From Spirochaetota bacterium (GTDB lineage Bacteria; Spirochaetota; UBA4802; UB4802): 48,963 bases of DNA. Of this stretch, positions 37,486-43,445 are shown in pieces. The stretch's first letter is position 1; each line of letters begins with the position of its first letter. The stretch covers positions 1 to 48,963 of the forward strand of contig JAOAIH010000018.1 in the NCBI GenBank assembly GCA_026414805.1. Direction: 5' to 3'. The position numbers and the translations under genes are program-made. The notes under the pieces were generated by a model. The model had not been told where the DNA came from and ran no database searches. It was given only the letters and a program-made list of their open reading frames with translations.

Positions 37486-38526
37486 TTACTTTCTTTTTTT
37501 GGATTTTGCTCTAAAAGCAAGATTATATATTGTATCAAACTCCTGCAGATACAGTTTTGCTATATCACTGGATCGTATCATGATACAGTTTTCGTCATTG
37601 CGTTTTTTAGCATTTTTTGAAAAATTATATGACCCGGTAATAACCCATTCCTCATCAATAATTATTACTTTATGATGCATCGTGTTGGGATTGGCATCAT
37701 AGAGTACATCAAGTCCTTCAACCTTCAATTTGATATATTCACTGTTAACATTTTTAATGTCCTTTTTTTCAAATACTCCTTTTACTGTAACACCTTGTTT
37801 GTGTTTAGCAATTATTGCTTCGCCAATTTCATCGCTTGTAAATGAAAACGCTAAAAAGAAAATTGACTTCTTTGCCTTTTCTATTCGCTTAGTTATGATA
37901 CGCTCAATATTGTCATCAGGGGAAAAATATACATTAATATCAATGTCATTGAGTTTGACATAATACTTGTTTGATAGAAATGGGAATGGGGTATAGTCTG
38001 CACGGTTTCCAAAAACACCTTCTTCAAACATTTCATTAAATTCTGCAAAATAGATAGAAGCTACATCTTCATTTTCAATATAAATGGCATTATTGTTATT
38101 GAGCTTAGCTTCGCGTTGCGTAATATTATATGAGCCAGTCCATACGGCTTTACTGTCAAAAATAAAAAATTTGTTGTGCATAAAACCTTTTCGTTGATCC
38201 AACCGCATAGGGATATGATATCGTTCAAATTGTGATTTTATGTTTTCTGGCAATCTTTCGGATTCCAATACTAATTTTACGTCTACACCTTTTGATTTAG
38301 CATAACATAATGCATCTACAATTAATGGATCAGTAATTTCATATACGGCAGCATGTATTGATATTTTTGCAGTATTTATTTTTTGTAATAGTGCTTTTTG
38401 AATTGCGGTGACCTGTTCCTCTTTTTCGGGAGCAGTAAAATATACTTCAATTGGTGAAATTGCATATAAAAAAGTATATGATATAAGCAGTATGGCGCAT
38501 GCTATCAATGTTTTATGATACTTCAT
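37486..38526 (-). CDS. secreted phospholipase D-family protein (two HKD motifs)
   Basis: The 346-residue protein has a signal peptide (about 1-22) and two PLD active-site motifs, 'HNKFFIFDSKAVWTGSYN' and 'HHKVIIIDEEWVITGSYN', each HxKx4D followed by GSxN. Such proteins cut phosphodiesters, for example as nucleases or cardiolipin-type transferases. The short length and GSYN pattern fit the Nuc-like or secreted PLD group. I chose the second ATG because it overlaps the previous stop by ATGA. It is co-transcribed with the unknown gene upstream. Confidence 0.85.
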   Translation of the reverse strand: MKYHKTLIACAILLISYTFLYAISPIEVYFTAPEKEEQVTAIQKALLQKINTAKISIHAAVYEITDPLIVDALCYAKSKGVDVKLVLESERLPENIKSQFERYHIPMRLDQRKGFMHNKFFIFDSKAVWTGSYNITQREAKLNNNNAIYIENEDVASIYFAEFNEMFEEGVFGNRADYTPFPFLSNKYYVKLNDIDINVYFSPDDNIERIITKRIEKAKKSIFFLAFSFTSDEIGEAIIAKHKQGVTVKGVFEKKDIKNVNSEYIKLKVEGLDVLYDANPNTMHHKVIIIDEEWVITGSYNFSKNAKKRNDENCIMIRSSDIAKLYLQEFDTIYNLAFRAKSKKRK

Positions 38527-39449
38527 TGTCTTTTTTCCCATATAGCATTTTCGTATTCAACAAATTGTAATTCTGCTTCCTTTGTGGGAAAAAGCAACTT
38601 TGCTTTTTTAACTAATGTCTGAAATGTTACAAGGTCATTTTTTGTAGCTTTGTCAATAAATTCTTTAATTTTCTGGTCATTGTGGGTAATAAGATATAAA
38701 TAAAATTCGTAGGCTCGTTTTAATTCCTTTAGTTTTTCCACATGTTTGCGCAATTCTTCCTTATCGGAATGTTGTATCATTGTGGATAAAAATGCAATGA
38801 TATATTGTGTATCGGATTCCGTAATATCCATATCTAGCATGATTTGTTTCACTCTAACTAAATCTAAATTACGTAAATGTATGCGGGCCAAAAACACAGG
38901 ATTCTGCGAAAGCAGATTAATATCAACATTGGTTAACTGATCAACTGCTCGTTTGGAGTCATCTATTGTGGTATCTGGAGCTTTATTGACTATCTCCAGA
39001 TACGATGATGGGGCAAGGGAAGATATAAACTGGATATCGGTCTGGTTTAGAGTACTATTTACAATTATGTAATCAGGGAGAGTGCCTTTTTTAACAAAAC
39101 TGACAAAAGAAGCAGTATCACTAAAAAACTCAGTTATGCAGGGTAGCATATCCAGAGAGGTATTAGTGTGAATAAAGAGATATTTCTTTTTCCCTTCGTC
39201 GGAAGTGTAGGGAATAATCATGGAATTATTCTGAATTTTAAATAACTCGTACGCAGGTTTCCTTATTGAGCTATATGATTCAAAACCAATGAAAACAACT
39301 GTTTTCATTGGATGGAAAGGTTTTGCTTTGTTTTCATCGGAATAGATGATTTCCCCTTTTGGGTTGAACACTACAAACTGTTTTTTTGCAATGTTAATTT
39401 TAAAAATATATCCCTTTGGTGTCTTCTCTTCAATAATGGGTGTTGACAT
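38523..39449 (-). CDS. protein of unknown function
   Basis: The 308-residue protein has no signal peptide, membrane segment or motif I recognise. The N-terminal half is beta-rich ('GYIFKINIAKKQFVVFNPKGEIIYSD'), perhaps a receiver-like or ligand-binding fold. The C-terminal half is helical and charged ('LRKHVEKLKELKRAYEFYLYLI'). I chose the ATG two codons into the frame, about nine bases from AAAGG. It is coupled to the PLD gene, so the two may act together. Confidence 0.5.
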   Translation of the reverse strand: MSTPIIEEKTPKGYIFKINIAKKQFVVFNPKGEIIYSDENKAKPFHPMKTVVFIGFESYSSIRKPAYELFKIQNNSMIIPYTSDEGKKKYLFIHTNTSLDMLPCITEFFSDTASFVSFVKKGTLPDYIIVNSTLNQTDIQFISSLAPSSYLEIVNKAPDTTIDDSKRAVDQLTNVDINLLSQNPVFLARIHLRNLDLVRVKQIMLDMDITESDTQYIIAFLSTMIQHSDKEELRKHVEKLKELKRAYEFYLYLITHNDQKIKEFIDKATKNDLVTFQTLVKKAKLLFPTKEAELQFVEYENAIWEKRQ

Positions 39450-39964
39450 TACCATGTACCTTTACATAGAATTTACTGGAGCATGTAAATTTTCATTGAA
39501 ATTTTATTAATAGTTAGCACTTTATGCTTTTTACAACTATTATTATGTATTGAGTTAAATATCTGTACAAAAAAATTATGTATAATCAAAAATACGGTAT
39601 AACCACTAAATTATAATTGATAAAAAATCAAGCAAATGTAACTATTTAATGCAAAATCATGGAATAAATATTGTATCATAAAATATAATTTTGAATAGTA
39701 GTGCTATGAATATGGCTTTATCTTGAAAGTGAGTCATAGCCATAGCAGCTACTAAAACTTTTTTAAAATAAGTAATGTTTTTTATGTTACATCTTTTTAA
39801 TATGGTATTGAAACGTGCACGCTGTATGATATTCCACAATATATGGTGGGTTGATAATTCAATAGTGATTAAGAGCATTTTCCTTTTGCACTTTCTTTTG
39901 TTGCTTGTTGTGAAAGAAGAAAGTACATAATATATTTTAAAATTTATTTTCTAAGGAGAAAATA
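39450..39964. other. 515-bp AT-rich intergenic region
   Basis: This is the longest gap in the window. It is AT-rich, has no convincing ORF in either strand and no long hairpin. A TTAGCAC at 39514 resembles half a CIRCE element but has no partner. An AAGGAG before 39965 serves the fibre-like gene. Confidence 0.45.
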
Positions 39965-42538
39965 ATGAGTACTGTTAATATACTGTATCCTGTCCGCTAT
40001 ACAGGGAAAATCCATGCTTTTTCAAGCAGCTTTGAAAAAAATGAAGCAGAAAATGTTTTAAAGAATGATGCAACATACTGGTGCACTGCAAAAAATCACA
40101 ATGCGGTAAGTGAGTACATCACAATTGATTATGGTTCAATGGTTGCGGCAAATATTATAGAAATTTTTCCATCTCCTTCAGGGAAGACAACATTTCCTTC
40201 AGAGTTTAGGCTAGAATGTAGTGCAGATGGCATTAACTGGGAGGTAATCAAAGCAGAAAACAGATATACCCTAGAGGATGATGCCTATCGCCTGTTTTTA
40301 CCCATTAAAGTGTTCCGGTTTTTAAAGTTATATATTGCCAAACCCAAAAGGATTGCCGCAAAATACTTTTCTGAGATAGGAAGTATCCAGGCAGGCTTGC
40401 AAGGCGCTGTTTCAATTACAGCCAGTTCAAGTTCTTCGTATGAACATGATCCTTCATGCCTAATAGATAGTGATACACAAAAATATTGGGAATCTGAAAT
40501 TACACAAAGTGCATCCAGGCAATGGATTGAAGTTGATTTAGGACGCATGTTCCCGCTTATACACATAGGGATCATTGCAACCGGGAATCCTACACTCTTT
40601 CCTGAGCAATTTTCTATAGAGATAAGCGATGATAAAAAAATATGGTCTACACTTGCAGATGTTAAACGTTTTAAAGCAGAACCAAAGGGGTCGTATATAT
40701 TTGGAGGATATCAGTTTAATGCCAGGTATATACGAATAAATGTAATGACAGTACAAACCGATAAACAGAAATATTGTGCACAAATTGCTGGCATTACTGC
40801 TAATGCTCCATTACCTGCAGTACAGCACTTTCATATAAATGCGGGAGTACAGTATGCCACTGTTTTTCAGCCGGGCATTGTTAAGCTAGCTGCTGATGGT
40901 GATACCACTCCGGGTACGGTGGTGCAGGCACATGATACAAGGCTTCGTGATGCAAGCACAATATTCAAGGGTATAGTACAACTGGCTGAAGATGGCTCAA
41001 GTGAGAAAGGCTTAGCAGTGCAGGCATCAGATTCGCGGTTGGCGCTTGCAACTGAATTAAAAGCAGGAATTGTACGGCTGGCGTATGATAGGGAGGTTTC
41101 CGAAGGGGCTGTGGTGCAATCTACTGACTCTAGGATAAAGGAAGCAACTGAAACAACATTTGGTATAGTAAAATTGTGTCCTGATGGACAGTATAGCAGC
41201 AATTCGGTTGTTCGCGGTGATGATAGCAGATTGCATAAAGCAACAACAAGGAAATATGGCATAGTGCGCCTGGCTGAAAATGGCGAAGACAATGAATTCT
41301 GTGTTGTACAGGGCAATGATAGGCGCCTTAAGGATGCTACAATCGTTTCTAAGGGGATAGTAGAGCTTGCAGAGGATGGTGAAGATGCACCGAATGTAGT
41401 AGTGCAGGGCAATGACAGAAGGCTCAAAGAGGCAACTACGCACAGCAAAGGGATAGTAGAGCTTGCAGAGGATGGTGAGGATGCACCAGGAGTAGTAGTG
41501 CAAGGCAATGATAGGCGTCTTAAAGAGGCAACTGAAGAAACTCCTGGTATTGTTACACTTGCAAAACATGGCCAAAGCCGTAAATTTCATGTAGTTCAGT
41601 CAGATGATCCGCGACTATCTGATAAACGCGAACCATTACCGCATACACACGACTATGCACCGTTAGTACATTCATTTGACAGCCATACAGGAACTATCGC
41701 CATAATTCAGGAAAAATCAGGTGAATTAATTGGTATCACACCACCGACAAGTGACAGTGCAATACTATATGGAAAAAATACTGCACACACAGGCACTACA
41801 ATAGGTGTTGCCGGAATTGCATTCACTGCTCCTGATTCAGATGCAAGGTCGTATGGTGTTGTTGGGCATGCACCATTGTGTGGTGTGCGCGGGCAGTCAC
41901 AGGGTAATTCAGATACGATGCAGGGCAGCGGTGTAATGGGTGTATCGCGTTTTGGTGCTGGTGGTGTGTTTGTAAGCGAGCATAACTGGTCGCTGGTGGC
42001 TGATGGCTTTGGAGCTATCGCCCACTATGATGATACGCTGCAGTTGGTAGGTGATGGTAGAGCGCTGTACGTTAATGGCCAGGCATATTTTAAAGGAACA
42101 ATAACAATAGATACAGATGCAAAAGAATATTATGCCAATATAGTTGAGATGTTTGAAACGGATGAAAAAGAATTTATCTCTCCTGGCGATGTACTTGTGG
42201 TCAGCACCCAAGGCAATTCAATACTTTCACGGTCGCGCACTGCGTATAACAAAGGGGTAATTGGCGTTGTTGCTGGCAACCCTGTTGTAGTGATTAACAA
42301 TGCATCAGCTGAAAAAAAATTATATCCGGTAGTATTAACAGGCTCAGTGCTATGCAAGGTAGATGCACGCCAAAAACCGGTAAAGCCTGGTGACTTATTA
42401 GTGACTTCCGACACGCCTGGATGCGGCATGGCAGCGTCCATTGATTCATTTGATAAAATTGGCACAGTGTTTGCAAAAGCACTCACAGCGCTTGATGATG
42501 GAATTGCACTTATACCGGTTATGATATGGAAGATGTAA
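39965..42538 (+). CDS. discoidin and 32-residue-repeat fibre-like protein
   Basis: The 857-residue protein starts with two F5/8 type C (discoidin-like) domains (about 10-135 and 140-285), then eight tandem 32-residue repeats (301-556) of the form x-G-I-V-x-L-A-x-D-G...V-V-Q-x-x-D-x-R-L, like phage tail-fibre repeats. A beta-rich linker and a C-terminal domain ('GDVLVVS', 'KGVIGVVAGNP', 'KPGDLLVTSDTPGC') close it. No signal peptide is visible, so export by a non-Sec route or a tail-like particle is possible, yet no phage genes are near. A carbohydrate- or surface-binding fibre is the likely role. Confidence 0.7.
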   Translation: MSTVNILYPVRYTGKIHAFSSSFEKNEAENVLKNDATYWCTAKNHNAVSEYITIDYGSMVAANIIEIFPSPSGKTTFPSEFRLECSADGINWEVIKAENRYTLEDDAYRLFLPIKVFRFLKLYIAKPKRIAAKYFSEIGSIQAGLQGAVSITASSSSSYEHDPSCLIDSDTQKYWESEITQSASRQWIEVDLGRMFPLIHIGIIATGNPTLFPEQFSIEISDDKKIWSTLADVKRFKAEPKGSYIFGGYQFNARYIRINVMTVQTDKQKYCAQIAGITANAPLPAVQHFHINAGVQYATVFQPGIVKLAADGDTTPGTVVQAHDTRLRDASTIFKGIVQLAEDGSSEKGLAVQASDSRLALATELKAGIVRLAYDREVSEGAVVQSTDSRIKEATETTFGIVKLCPDGQYSSNSVVRGDDSRLHKATTRKYGIVRLAENGEDNEFCVVQGNDRRLKDATIVSKGIVELAEDGEDAPNVVVQGNDRRLKEATTHSKGIVELAEDGEDAPGVVVQGNDRRLKEATEETPGIVTLAKHGQSRKFHVVQSDDPRLSDKREPLPHTHDYAPLVHSFDSHTGTIAIIQEKSGELIGITPPTSDSAILYGKNTAHTGTTIGVAGIAFTAPDSDARSYGVVGHAPLCGVRGQSQGNSDTMQGSGVMGVSRFGAGGVFVSEHNWSLVADGFGAIAHYDDTLQLVGDGRALYVNGQAYFKGTITIDTDAKEYYANIVEMFETDEKEFISPGDVLVVSTQGNSILSRSRTAYNKGVIGVVAGNPVVVINNASAEKKLYPVVLTGSVLCKVDARQKPVKPGDLLVTSDTPGCGMAASIDSFDKIGTVFAKALTALDDGIALIPVMIWKM
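40865..41632 (+). repeat. eight tandem 96-bp coding repeats
   Basis: Eight 96-bp units encode the 32-residue repeats of the fibre-like protein. Units 6 and 7 are nearly identical in DNA and probably arose by recent duplication. The others have diverged to share only the G-I-V, V-V-Q and D-x-R-L positions. In-frame unit gain or loss would change fibre length. Confidence 0.85.
41690..41701 (+). repeat. near-match to the dispersed word (one mismatch)
   Basis: GGAACTATCGCC, one base off the consensus in the core, read as Gly-Thr-Ile-Ala. It lies 321 bases before exact copy 14 in the same gene. Confidence 0.6.
42011..42022 (+). repeat. GGAGCTATCGCC dispersed word (copy 14, exact)
   Basis: An exact 12-mer in the fibre-like gene, read as Gly-Ala-Ile-Ala. 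Confidence 0.9.
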
Positions 42539-42558: not shown

Positions 42559-43149
42559 TTATGGTTTGAGTTGTTTGAGTATCTCCTGTTCTTTTTTGCT
42601 GAATACCAGAGTGTGATAGGCGTTAATATCCTTTGCCATTATTTTGCTCAAATAGGTTATCTTGCGGCAGAAGGGTTTTTTCTCATAACTGTCCACCCAT
42701 ACAATTATAGATGTTGATTCTGATTCCCATATATATGCGCCCTGATTATTCTTTATAGATTCACCAGTTGGTGGGCCATACTTTTCTTCCATTTTCTTCT
42801 TCATATCATCCAGTGAAATATAGGGAAACTGAATCACAACATAAAACAGCTTTGGCTGCTGATTTGCTTCCTGATTATACTCTGGATAAAAAAATCCATA
42901 TCGATATTCTAATTCACCATCTTTGGATACAATAATACGCTTTTCATCAGTAAATGCAATTCTTCCCAGTACCTGTGGTTTTACATCGTTAAATGTGCTG
43001 CCCCACCTGGCATTACCATACCCGTCAGCTATGTTTTTACTCTGGGCTGGCTGTGTTTTCTCAGGTGCTTTCTGCTGGGTAAATGAGGTATTCACTGTAT
43101 AAAAAACAATGCCAATACACCCAAGGGCTACCCATAGTATTTTTTTCAT
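42559..43149 (-). CDS. small exported protein of unknown function
   Basis: The 196-residue protein has a signal peptide (hydrophobic 4-20, cleavage near residue 26), a Gln/Pro-rich linker, then a mixed alpha/beta domain with 'GNARWGSTFNDVK', 'MKKKMEEKYGPPTGE' and 'AYIWESESTSIIVWVD'. The G-x-x-x-x-W-G-S/T-x-x-D and KYG-P pattern resembles small periplasmic domains found next to envelope genes, function unknown. I chose the ATG at 43149, with AAAGGA upstream. The longer frame adds 70 unlikely residues. Confidence 0.65.
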   Translation of the reverse strand: MKKILWVALGCIGIVFYTVNTSFTQQKAPEKTQPAQSKNIADGYGNARWGSTFNDVKPQVLGRIAFTDEKRIIVSKDGELEYRYGFFYPEYNQEANQQPKLFYVVIQFPYISLDDMKKKMEEKYGPPTGESIKNNQGAYIWESESTSIIVWVDSYEKKPFCRKITYLSKIMAKDINAYHTLVFSKKEQEILKQLKP

Positions 43150-43230
43150 AGTACTATCCTTTGTACATAAATATATCTTTACGCTTATACTATCGGAAAT
43201 ATATTGTTTAAAATATATTATAAATTTTAG

Positions 43231-43242
43231 GGCGATAGCTCC
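43231..43242 (-). repeat. GGAGCTATCGCC dispersed word (copy 15, exact, intergenic)
   Basis: An exact 12-mer in the spacer between the small exported protein and the CDF gene, about 80 bases upstream of the former. Apart from copy 5 it is the only copy outside coding DNA. Confidence 0.9.
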
Positions 43243-43445
43243 AGTAAAAAATCCACTCATGTAATTGTTGAATATATTTTGTAATACAACCATCTTGCGT
43301 GAGAATGAAAGTATAGACGATGAATGGACGTGATACAAATTTAGGGTAGTATTATACAATAATAGTTTACTTTGTGTAAAAATTTATTGAAGAATAATTA
43401 GTACCAGAGTATATTATCATAATCGTTTTATGTAAGGGAAACAAC

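Follow-up and report, generated by a model that had tools for sequence, protein, structure and literature searches.

The fibre gene and its architecture

The stretch of DNA analysed here, referred to as the window, covers positions 1 to 48,963 of contig JAOAIH010000018.1 from a Spirochaetota bacterium (assembly GCA_026414805.1), and carries on its forward strand a gene for a fibre-like protein, in which two N-terminal discoidin (F5/8C) domains are followed by a shaft of repeats and a C-terminal head. Together with a divergent partner, here called gene 2, this fibre gene forms the subject of the present analysis. The fibre is a clade-wide single-copy core gene in one branch of the spirochaetes, which includes Leptospira, and the family is old, vertically inherited and under strong purifying selection, with a tree that largely tracks the host families. 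Genomes (G), loci (L) and families (f) are given by our own handles where they need to be told apart. The features of the two genes are as follows.

39953..39958, forward strand: ribosome-binding site AAGGAG, read from the sequence, 6 bases 5' of the ATG
39965..42538, forward strand: open reading frame (ORF) of the fibre-like protein, 857 residues, 92.8 kDa, without a signal peptide
40019..40342, forward strand: first F5/8C (discoidin) domain, about residues 19–126 (second PF00754 stretch, extent taken from the phrog_16348 match, 19–126)
40412..40774, forward strand: second F5/8C (discoidin) domain, residues 150–270 (best PF00754 stretch)
40856..41623, forward strand: shaft of eight 32-residue fibre units, residues 298–553, with a weak match to PHROG 910, tail collar fibre
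41606..42535, forward strand: C-terminal head, starting at the DPRLxDxREPLPHxH junction and running to the end (alignment A1, 24 sequences)
42140..42442, forward strand: stretch similar to the Peptidase_G2 / phi29 gp12 intramolecular-chaperone domain of phages, lacking the Asp with which the phage domain opens
38523..39455, reverse strand: gene 2, divergent partner of 310 residues and no known family, 509 bp from the fibre start

A first-pass annotation, made from the letters of this DNA alone, had described two F5/8C domains, eight 32-residue repeats and a C-terminal domain, and this architecture was borne out by the Pfam scan (PF00754, E 1.3e-26, in two stretches), by a unit profile that places eight units at an exact 32-residue step over residues 298–553, and by the head alignment. 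Identity at a lag of 32 residues reaches 53% in the window fibre, compared with a maximum of 16% over lags 20–59 in 2000 shuffles. The protein has all the features of the LIC20001-type family, i.e. two F5/8C domains, a run of 32-residue units, the DxRLxDxRxPxxHxH junction and the head.

The same annotation had remarked on the lack of a Sec signal, naming a missed upstream start as the finding that would speak against it, and here too it was right: the in-frame extension 5' of the ATG amounts to only 8 residues before a stop (an open frame of 865 residues), so that a missed signal peptide is excluded. The start itself is preceded by AGGAG in three of the four same-genus relatives, G002 differing. 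Hydropathy gave no hydrophobic N-terminus in the window fibre or the other family ORFs (36 in all, a set that includes fragments lacking a true N-terminus, namely L068 and one of the two from L048), L070 excepted, where the raised value comes from a stretch added by a TTG start 5' of the family's N-terminus. The signal peptide or lipobox of a Sec-exported adhesin is thus absent from the window fibre. Its cysteine content (1.05%, against a window mean of about 1.3%) is uninformative on the compartment in which it resides.

Distribution and inheritance

Among 98 genomes the fibre was found, one copy each, in 50, made up of 43 of the 46 genomes from the window's order, all three of f11, all three of f22 and the single f33 genome; the members of the window's order without it (G005, G021 and G044) are each 71–76% complete. 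A wider sample of 296 Spirochaetota genomes holds the fibre in 83, once each, and adds families f34, f38 and f41. In a tree of 54 fibre proteins, built from their ends only, f1, f4, f5, f7, f11 and f34 are monophyletic, the Leptospira interrogans protein groups inside f11, and the window's order stands apart from the Leptospirales-side families in which the gene belongs to the cassette described below. The gene 2 tree recovers f1, f3, f5, f11 and f22 as monophyletic groups, but not f34. Within the window's genus the N-terminal part has a ratio of non-synonymous to synonymous substitution (dN/dS) of 0.07–0.14 and the head one of 0.08, values to be read with the caveat that dS is saturated in several pairs and that one pair has no finite dS. 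The idea of a stray phage gene is contradicted by the single copy in 83 of 296 genomes, by the purifying selection and by a tree that largely follows the host families.

Number of repeat units

Units 6 and 7 of the window fibre, previously described as almost identical DNA, turned out to be 77% identical over 96 bases, with an exact run of about 30 bases. The accompanying suggestion that the repeat number varies holds for the window's order, where the 25 ORFs with both ends carry 16 units (15 ORFs), 15 (4), 14 (2), or 10, 9, 8 and 7 (one each); it fails for the cassette families, where eight units are present in 26 of 27 distinct ORFs with both ends, the exception being G124 with five, although these proteins are just 33–45% or so identical to that of the window. 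A repeat number fixed in all relatives, which had been named as the outcome speaking against variation, is thus nearly what the cassette families have and is not found in the window's order.

The four same-genus genomes examined beside the window have 9, 16, at least 11 (12 by hidden Markov model) and at least 6 units, the last two arrays reaching contig ends. Units 1–5 and the last unit correspond by position within the genus, and the inner units are mutually alike (up to 98% in G004), from which it follows that growth and shrinkage take place inside the array. A by-eye count found the fibre gene split across contigs, or represented by one end alone, in 15 of the 50 genomes, and the window's count of eight could therefore reflect assembly collapse, which could also weaken the within-genus differences in unit number as evidence for variation between strains.

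Gene 2

The statement that the fibre gene stands alone between metabolic genes proved half right, in that the divergent gene 2 at 509 bp is a clade-wide partner. Gene 2 is present in 84 of the 296 genomes, 81 of which hold both genes; the fibre occurs alone in G019 and G152, and gene 2 alone in G021, G044 and G161. Fifteen fetched loci, from f1, f2, f3, f5, f6 (G014) and f33, include the DNA 5' of the fibre, and in every one of them gene 2 is divergent and lies 80–914 bp from the fibre; in f4 and f7 it is found elsewhere in the genome, not adjoining the fibre. That the linkage is maintained across separate families is a better argument than co-occurrence for the two proteins working together. 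Searches of Pfam, NCBIfam, PHROG, PADLOC and PDB gave no convincing match to gene 2, and 30 pattern matches in viral contigs yielded none that could be confirmed. Single-chain structure predictions were of low confidence, with a predicted local distance difference test score (pLDDT) of 47 for gene 2 (3 sequences) and 29 for the fibre head (2 sequences).

An AT-rich near-palindrome, AAATTTTCATTGAAATTTTAT, lies 5' of gene 2 at window positions 39487–39507 and does not vary among the five genomes of the genus, the intergenic DNA around it diverging in much of its length; judged from this pattern, it is a possible operator of gene 2. Several f11 genomes (L055, L107, L108 and L115) have a second gene 2 copy, shorter and often broken, beside the intact one.

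The ParA–ParB–Rep cassette and the Leptospira member

In the Leptospirales-side families the fibre is part of a larger arrangement, which was surveyed in 26 of the 38 carriers of f11, f22, f34 and f38 together with L. interrogans, i.e. 27 loci. Gene 2 and a gene for an AAA/Fis-type protein point in one direction, and ParA, ParB, a Rep-like helix-turn-helix (HTH) protein, in some loci a membrane protein, and finally the fibre follow in the other. The full set of gene 2, ParA, ParB and HTH_36 protein accompanies the fibre in 23 of the 27 loci; the incomplete cassettes are those of G089 and G155 (no HTH), G124 (no ParA, ParB or HTH) and G136 (ParB not recognised). Where an HTH gene is present, it overlaps the fibre gene by 4 bp in 10 of 24 loci, and in 16 the two genes are spaced by -60 to +30 bp. 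Database matches of the L. interrogans HTH protein comprise families of phage replication initiators (phrog_2880, E 1.7e-24), two LE1-type phages and 107 plasmid records, 106 of which are from Leptospira. Three plasmids of Leptospira, including an inducible prophage, have the order parA–parB–rep with HTH Reps that support replication and are required for it, according to the excerpted text of PMC4338851; the cassette shares this order with the lcp1-3 and phage LE1 modules described there, for which that text mentions no fibre gene behind rep, and adds gene 2, the AAA/Fis protein and the fibre.

The ParA–ParB–HTH operon is missing around the window fibre. The HTH protein was found in none of the 46 genomes of the window's order, apart from weak, partial matches in G019, and the ParB of the window genome is of the ordinary type (about 140 bits, against 373–408 for the cassette type). 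The order retains just the fibre and gene 2 of the cassette, and since these persist without the replicon module, their function should not require ParAB–Rep. Neither is the cassette tied to a second replicon, because in G049 it lies on a 1.41-Mb contig that also carries an ordinary ParB.

Some cassettes of f34 are nonetheless found on small contigs of near-complete genomes, G164:C3 (184 kb, L099; 3 contigs) and G136:C4 (250 kb, L103; 4 contigs), which suggests second replicons like Leptospira chromosome II. Directly 5' of the fibre in f22 and f38 (L059, L057, L106 and L113; 0 to -38 bp) lies a gene for a protein of about 200 residues with four hydrophobic segments, a possible membrane partner of the fibre. 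The AAA/Fis-type protein, whose gene separates gene 2 from ParA in the majority of cassette loci (L054, L055, L088 and L096–L115), has a degenerate sigma-54 activator domain.

The fibre is annotated as ‘discoidin domain-containing protein’ on the Turneriella parva plasmid pTURPA.01 (NC_018021) and on the 350-kb second replicon of L. interrogans (NZ_CP020413), where it is A6J42_RS01265 (WP_001083720.1), with a computed mass of 90.97 kDa. From the mass, domain name, serovar and chromosome, we infer that this protein is LIC20001, also known as LB_001. Like the window fibre, LIC20001 has two F5/8C domains, eight 32-residue units, the same head, no signal peptide and gene 2 nearby; it differs in lying behind ParA–ParB–HTH on chromosome II, whereas the window copy is accompanied by gene 2 only. 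Searches of the open-licence PMC literature listed no functional study of LIC20001/LB_001, only mentions of LIC20001; its transcript served as a quantitative reverse-transcription PCR target and was unchanged in host-adapted cells, as stated in the excerpt of PMC3953431. The partner gene 2, the operon and the fixed length now provide LIC20001 with a testable context.

Resemblance to phage proteins

The shaft is the part of the protein that resembles long tail fibres. Matches to tail-fibre PHROGs are weak for the window (phrog_910, E 1e-6) and stronger for the G009 copy (PHROG 910, E 5e-14), and among the matches listed for INPHARED at E up to 1 are T4-like gp34 repeats, with the G004 repeat region at about 25% identity (E 0.04–0.3). 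The likeness to T4-type gp34, the proximal subunit of the long tail fibre, and to the PHROG 910 tail collar fibre lies in the repeat region, whereas the discoidin N-terminus, the vertical inheritance and the absence of virion genes set the spirochaete fibre apart.

The last third of the head matches PF11962 (Peptidase_G2) weakly in 11 of the 24 members of alignment A1 (best E 0.0019), and a comparison of the head with PDB gave a weak match to 3gqh, phi29 gp12 (E 0.13). Aligned by hhalign with eight phage domains, the head reached a probability of 65 (E 6e-5, 91 columns), a shorter alignment giving 44. The similarity of the head to the autoproteolytic intramolecular chaperones of phi29 gp12 and the Peptidase_G2 proteins is a remote one. 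Phage Peptidase_G2 proteins are cleaved at the opening Asp of the domain; this Asp is invariant at position 1 in all eight phage domains and is replaced in the window fibre by an N-I-V-E (Ile/Asn) context, so self-cleavage is not expected.

Ten IMG/VR loci found by the head profile have the junction motif or little more in common with the fibre, and no repeat array or N-terminal domain. One of these features is seen in a viral contig ORF (L079, 7911–8633), which has a DxRLSDARTPLPHTH junction as in the spirochaete fibre, without the repeat array or N-terminus. A recently acquired phage gene was rejected as an explanation, given the junction-only likeness of the head-profile loci and the lack of a relative along the whole protein in IMG/VR or, at E 1e-5, in INPHARED. 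Domestication of a phage fibre seems the likeliest origin of the family, as suggested by the repeats and the head.

Possible functions of the fibre

To our knowledge, bacteria reuse phage fibres either as secreted adhesins or as components of injection particles. In the present case, a fibre without an export signal or a particle is a core gene across a large branch of the Spirochaetota, often coupled to a parA–parB–rep operon, and either it is intracellular, which would be a new use of a phage fibre, or it is exported by an undescribed route. Of the readings considered, we rank an intracellular scaffold first, a surface adhesin second, a role in replicon maintenance third and an unrecognised particle last.

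Our preference, held at somewhat less than even confidence, is for a domesticated phage fibre that acts inside the cell as a fixed-length trimeric scaffold together with gene 2. The protein would derive from a tail fibre once encoded by a phage or phage-plasmid, and in the cassette families it may still accompany the partition and replication module of that element; in the window's order the replicon module would have gone, with the fibre and gene 2 carrying on. The chain would trimerise through its head and serve as a scaffold or tether of fixed length, located in the cytoplasm or on the inner membrane, with the discoidin domains at one end, and would work with gene 2. In favour of this reading are the single copy throughout the clade, a tree in which several families are monophyletic, the presence of gene 2 in nearly all carriers, the low dN/dS, the lack of signal peptides across the family and of sheath, VipA and portal genes in the window genome, the cassette with its Rep-like HTH protein, and the eight units kept in 26 of 27 cassette-family genes that have diverged greatly. 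LIC20001, as an F5/8C hypothetical protein of 91.0 kDa, was also recovered with a ClpB trap from lysed L. interrogans cells (excerpt of PMC5979558).

A number of observations weigh against this scaffold. The usual ligands of discoidin domains are extracellular carbohydrates or lipids. The co-occurrence of the fibre and gene 2 is not independent evidence of interaction, because both follow one clade, and the fibre tree is not monophyletic for f3 nor for f22, inside which G158 of f38 falls. The resemblance of the head to the G2 domain is weak, hhalign giving a probability of only 65, and the window's own head has no PF11962 match in the same Pfam scan. A whole-protein phage relative was found neither in IMG/VR nor in INPHARED at E 1e-5, which is why the case for a phage origin is built on the repeats and head. 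The ClpB pull-down, made from lysate, is no proof of an intracellular site, as LipL71 stands in the same table, and two in-silico studies list LB_001/LIC20001 among predicted outer-membrane or extracellular candidates (excerpts of PMC2387172 and PMC5348505).

These last predictions favour a surface adhesin, exported by an unrecognised Sec-independent route and binding glycans through its discoidin domains, as do the discoidin domains and tail-fibre shaft themselves. Such a protein would be functionally like the mosaic adhesive trimers (MATs) of Bdellovibrio, phage-like fibres built as an intertwined trimeric beta-prism that serve as bacterial adhesins and some of which have a phage-type chaperone/protease domain, according to the excerpt of PMC10769870. 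All 21 MATs described in that text have a signal peptide, they form many paralogues with varied tips and 13 of the 21 have an S74 domain, whereas the spirochaete fibre is single-copy, without a signal or an S74 match, and has strongly conserved ends (dN/dS about 0.07–0.14). Moreover, no conserved secretion gene adjoins the fibre in the 39 fetched loci, and in the relatives its company is a parAB–rep operon, so that we consider an adhesin, which the first-pass annotation had offered as its other proposal, unlikely.

A replicon-maintenance factor, in which the fibre would be part of the partition and replication apparatus and might anchor the replicon, or ParB together with Rep, at the membrane or pole, would account for the position of the gene at the end of a parA–parB–rep-like run, with 23 of 27 cassettes complete and the HTH overlap in 10 of 24, for its location on L. 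interrogans chromosome II, on T. parva pTURPA.01 and on the 184- and 250-kb contigs of the two near-complete f34 genomes, and for the four-segment membrane protein gene that touches it in f22 and f38. The window's order, however, keeps the fibre without the HTH protein and without a cassette-type ParB, and the G049 cassette shares its contig with an ordinary ParB and so is not bound to a second replicon; this role is, in our estimate, improbable. Equally speculative is a fuller version of the intracellular reading, in which a phage fibre turned core part would form a trimeric rod of set length (eight units, doubled to 16 in the window's order). The rod would be co-translated with the initiator that replicates chromosome II or a plasmid, would connect the replicon's partition complex or some other cargo with the membrane or cell pole, and would have gene 2 for its universal partner.

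Least probable of all, the protein would be a tail fibre in a particle whose other genes lie elsewhere in the genome, be it a gene-transfer agent, a defective phage or an injection particle; the tail-fibre-like repeats and head, and the normal absence of signal peptides from virion proteins, lend this reading some appeal. Profile searches for particle genes covered the 98 genomes, 50 of them with the fibre, and recovered the positive controls in all three cases (E. coli for VipA). Phage_sheath_1 (PF04984) was found in three genomes (G044, G062 and G093), of which only G093 is a fibre carrier; VipA/TssB of the type VI secretion system (PF05591) in none of the 98; and Phage_portal (PF04860) in eight, including three of the 50 carriers (G006, G018 as a partial match, and G049 below the cut-off). 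The window genome has none of the three. The first-pass proposal that the protein is cargo of a contractile injection system is accordingly not supported and is rejected for the particle types searched, and contractile particles as the home of the fibre are largely refuted; the portal result, negative in the window genome and in all but three of the 50 carriers, likewise speaks against a gene-transfer agent or prophage. A tail from families outside the sheath, portal and VipA models could still be its home. The earlier remark that there are no phage neighbours was confirmed, in that no phage genes were recognised near the fibre in the fetched loci.

Other neighbouring genes

Two further genes, both on the reverse strand, flank the pair.

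37486..38541, reverse strand: PLD-family protein, overlapping the end of gene 2; a neighbour in f1, f2, f3, f5 and f33
42559..43359, reverse strand: convergent gene of unknown function

DrmC-type PADLOC models match the PLD-family protein (E 7.8e-26), but its N-terminus is hydrophobic and it is probably an ordinary exported PLD protein. The family of the convergent gene is present in 23 of the 39 fetched loci (f1 and f3–f7).

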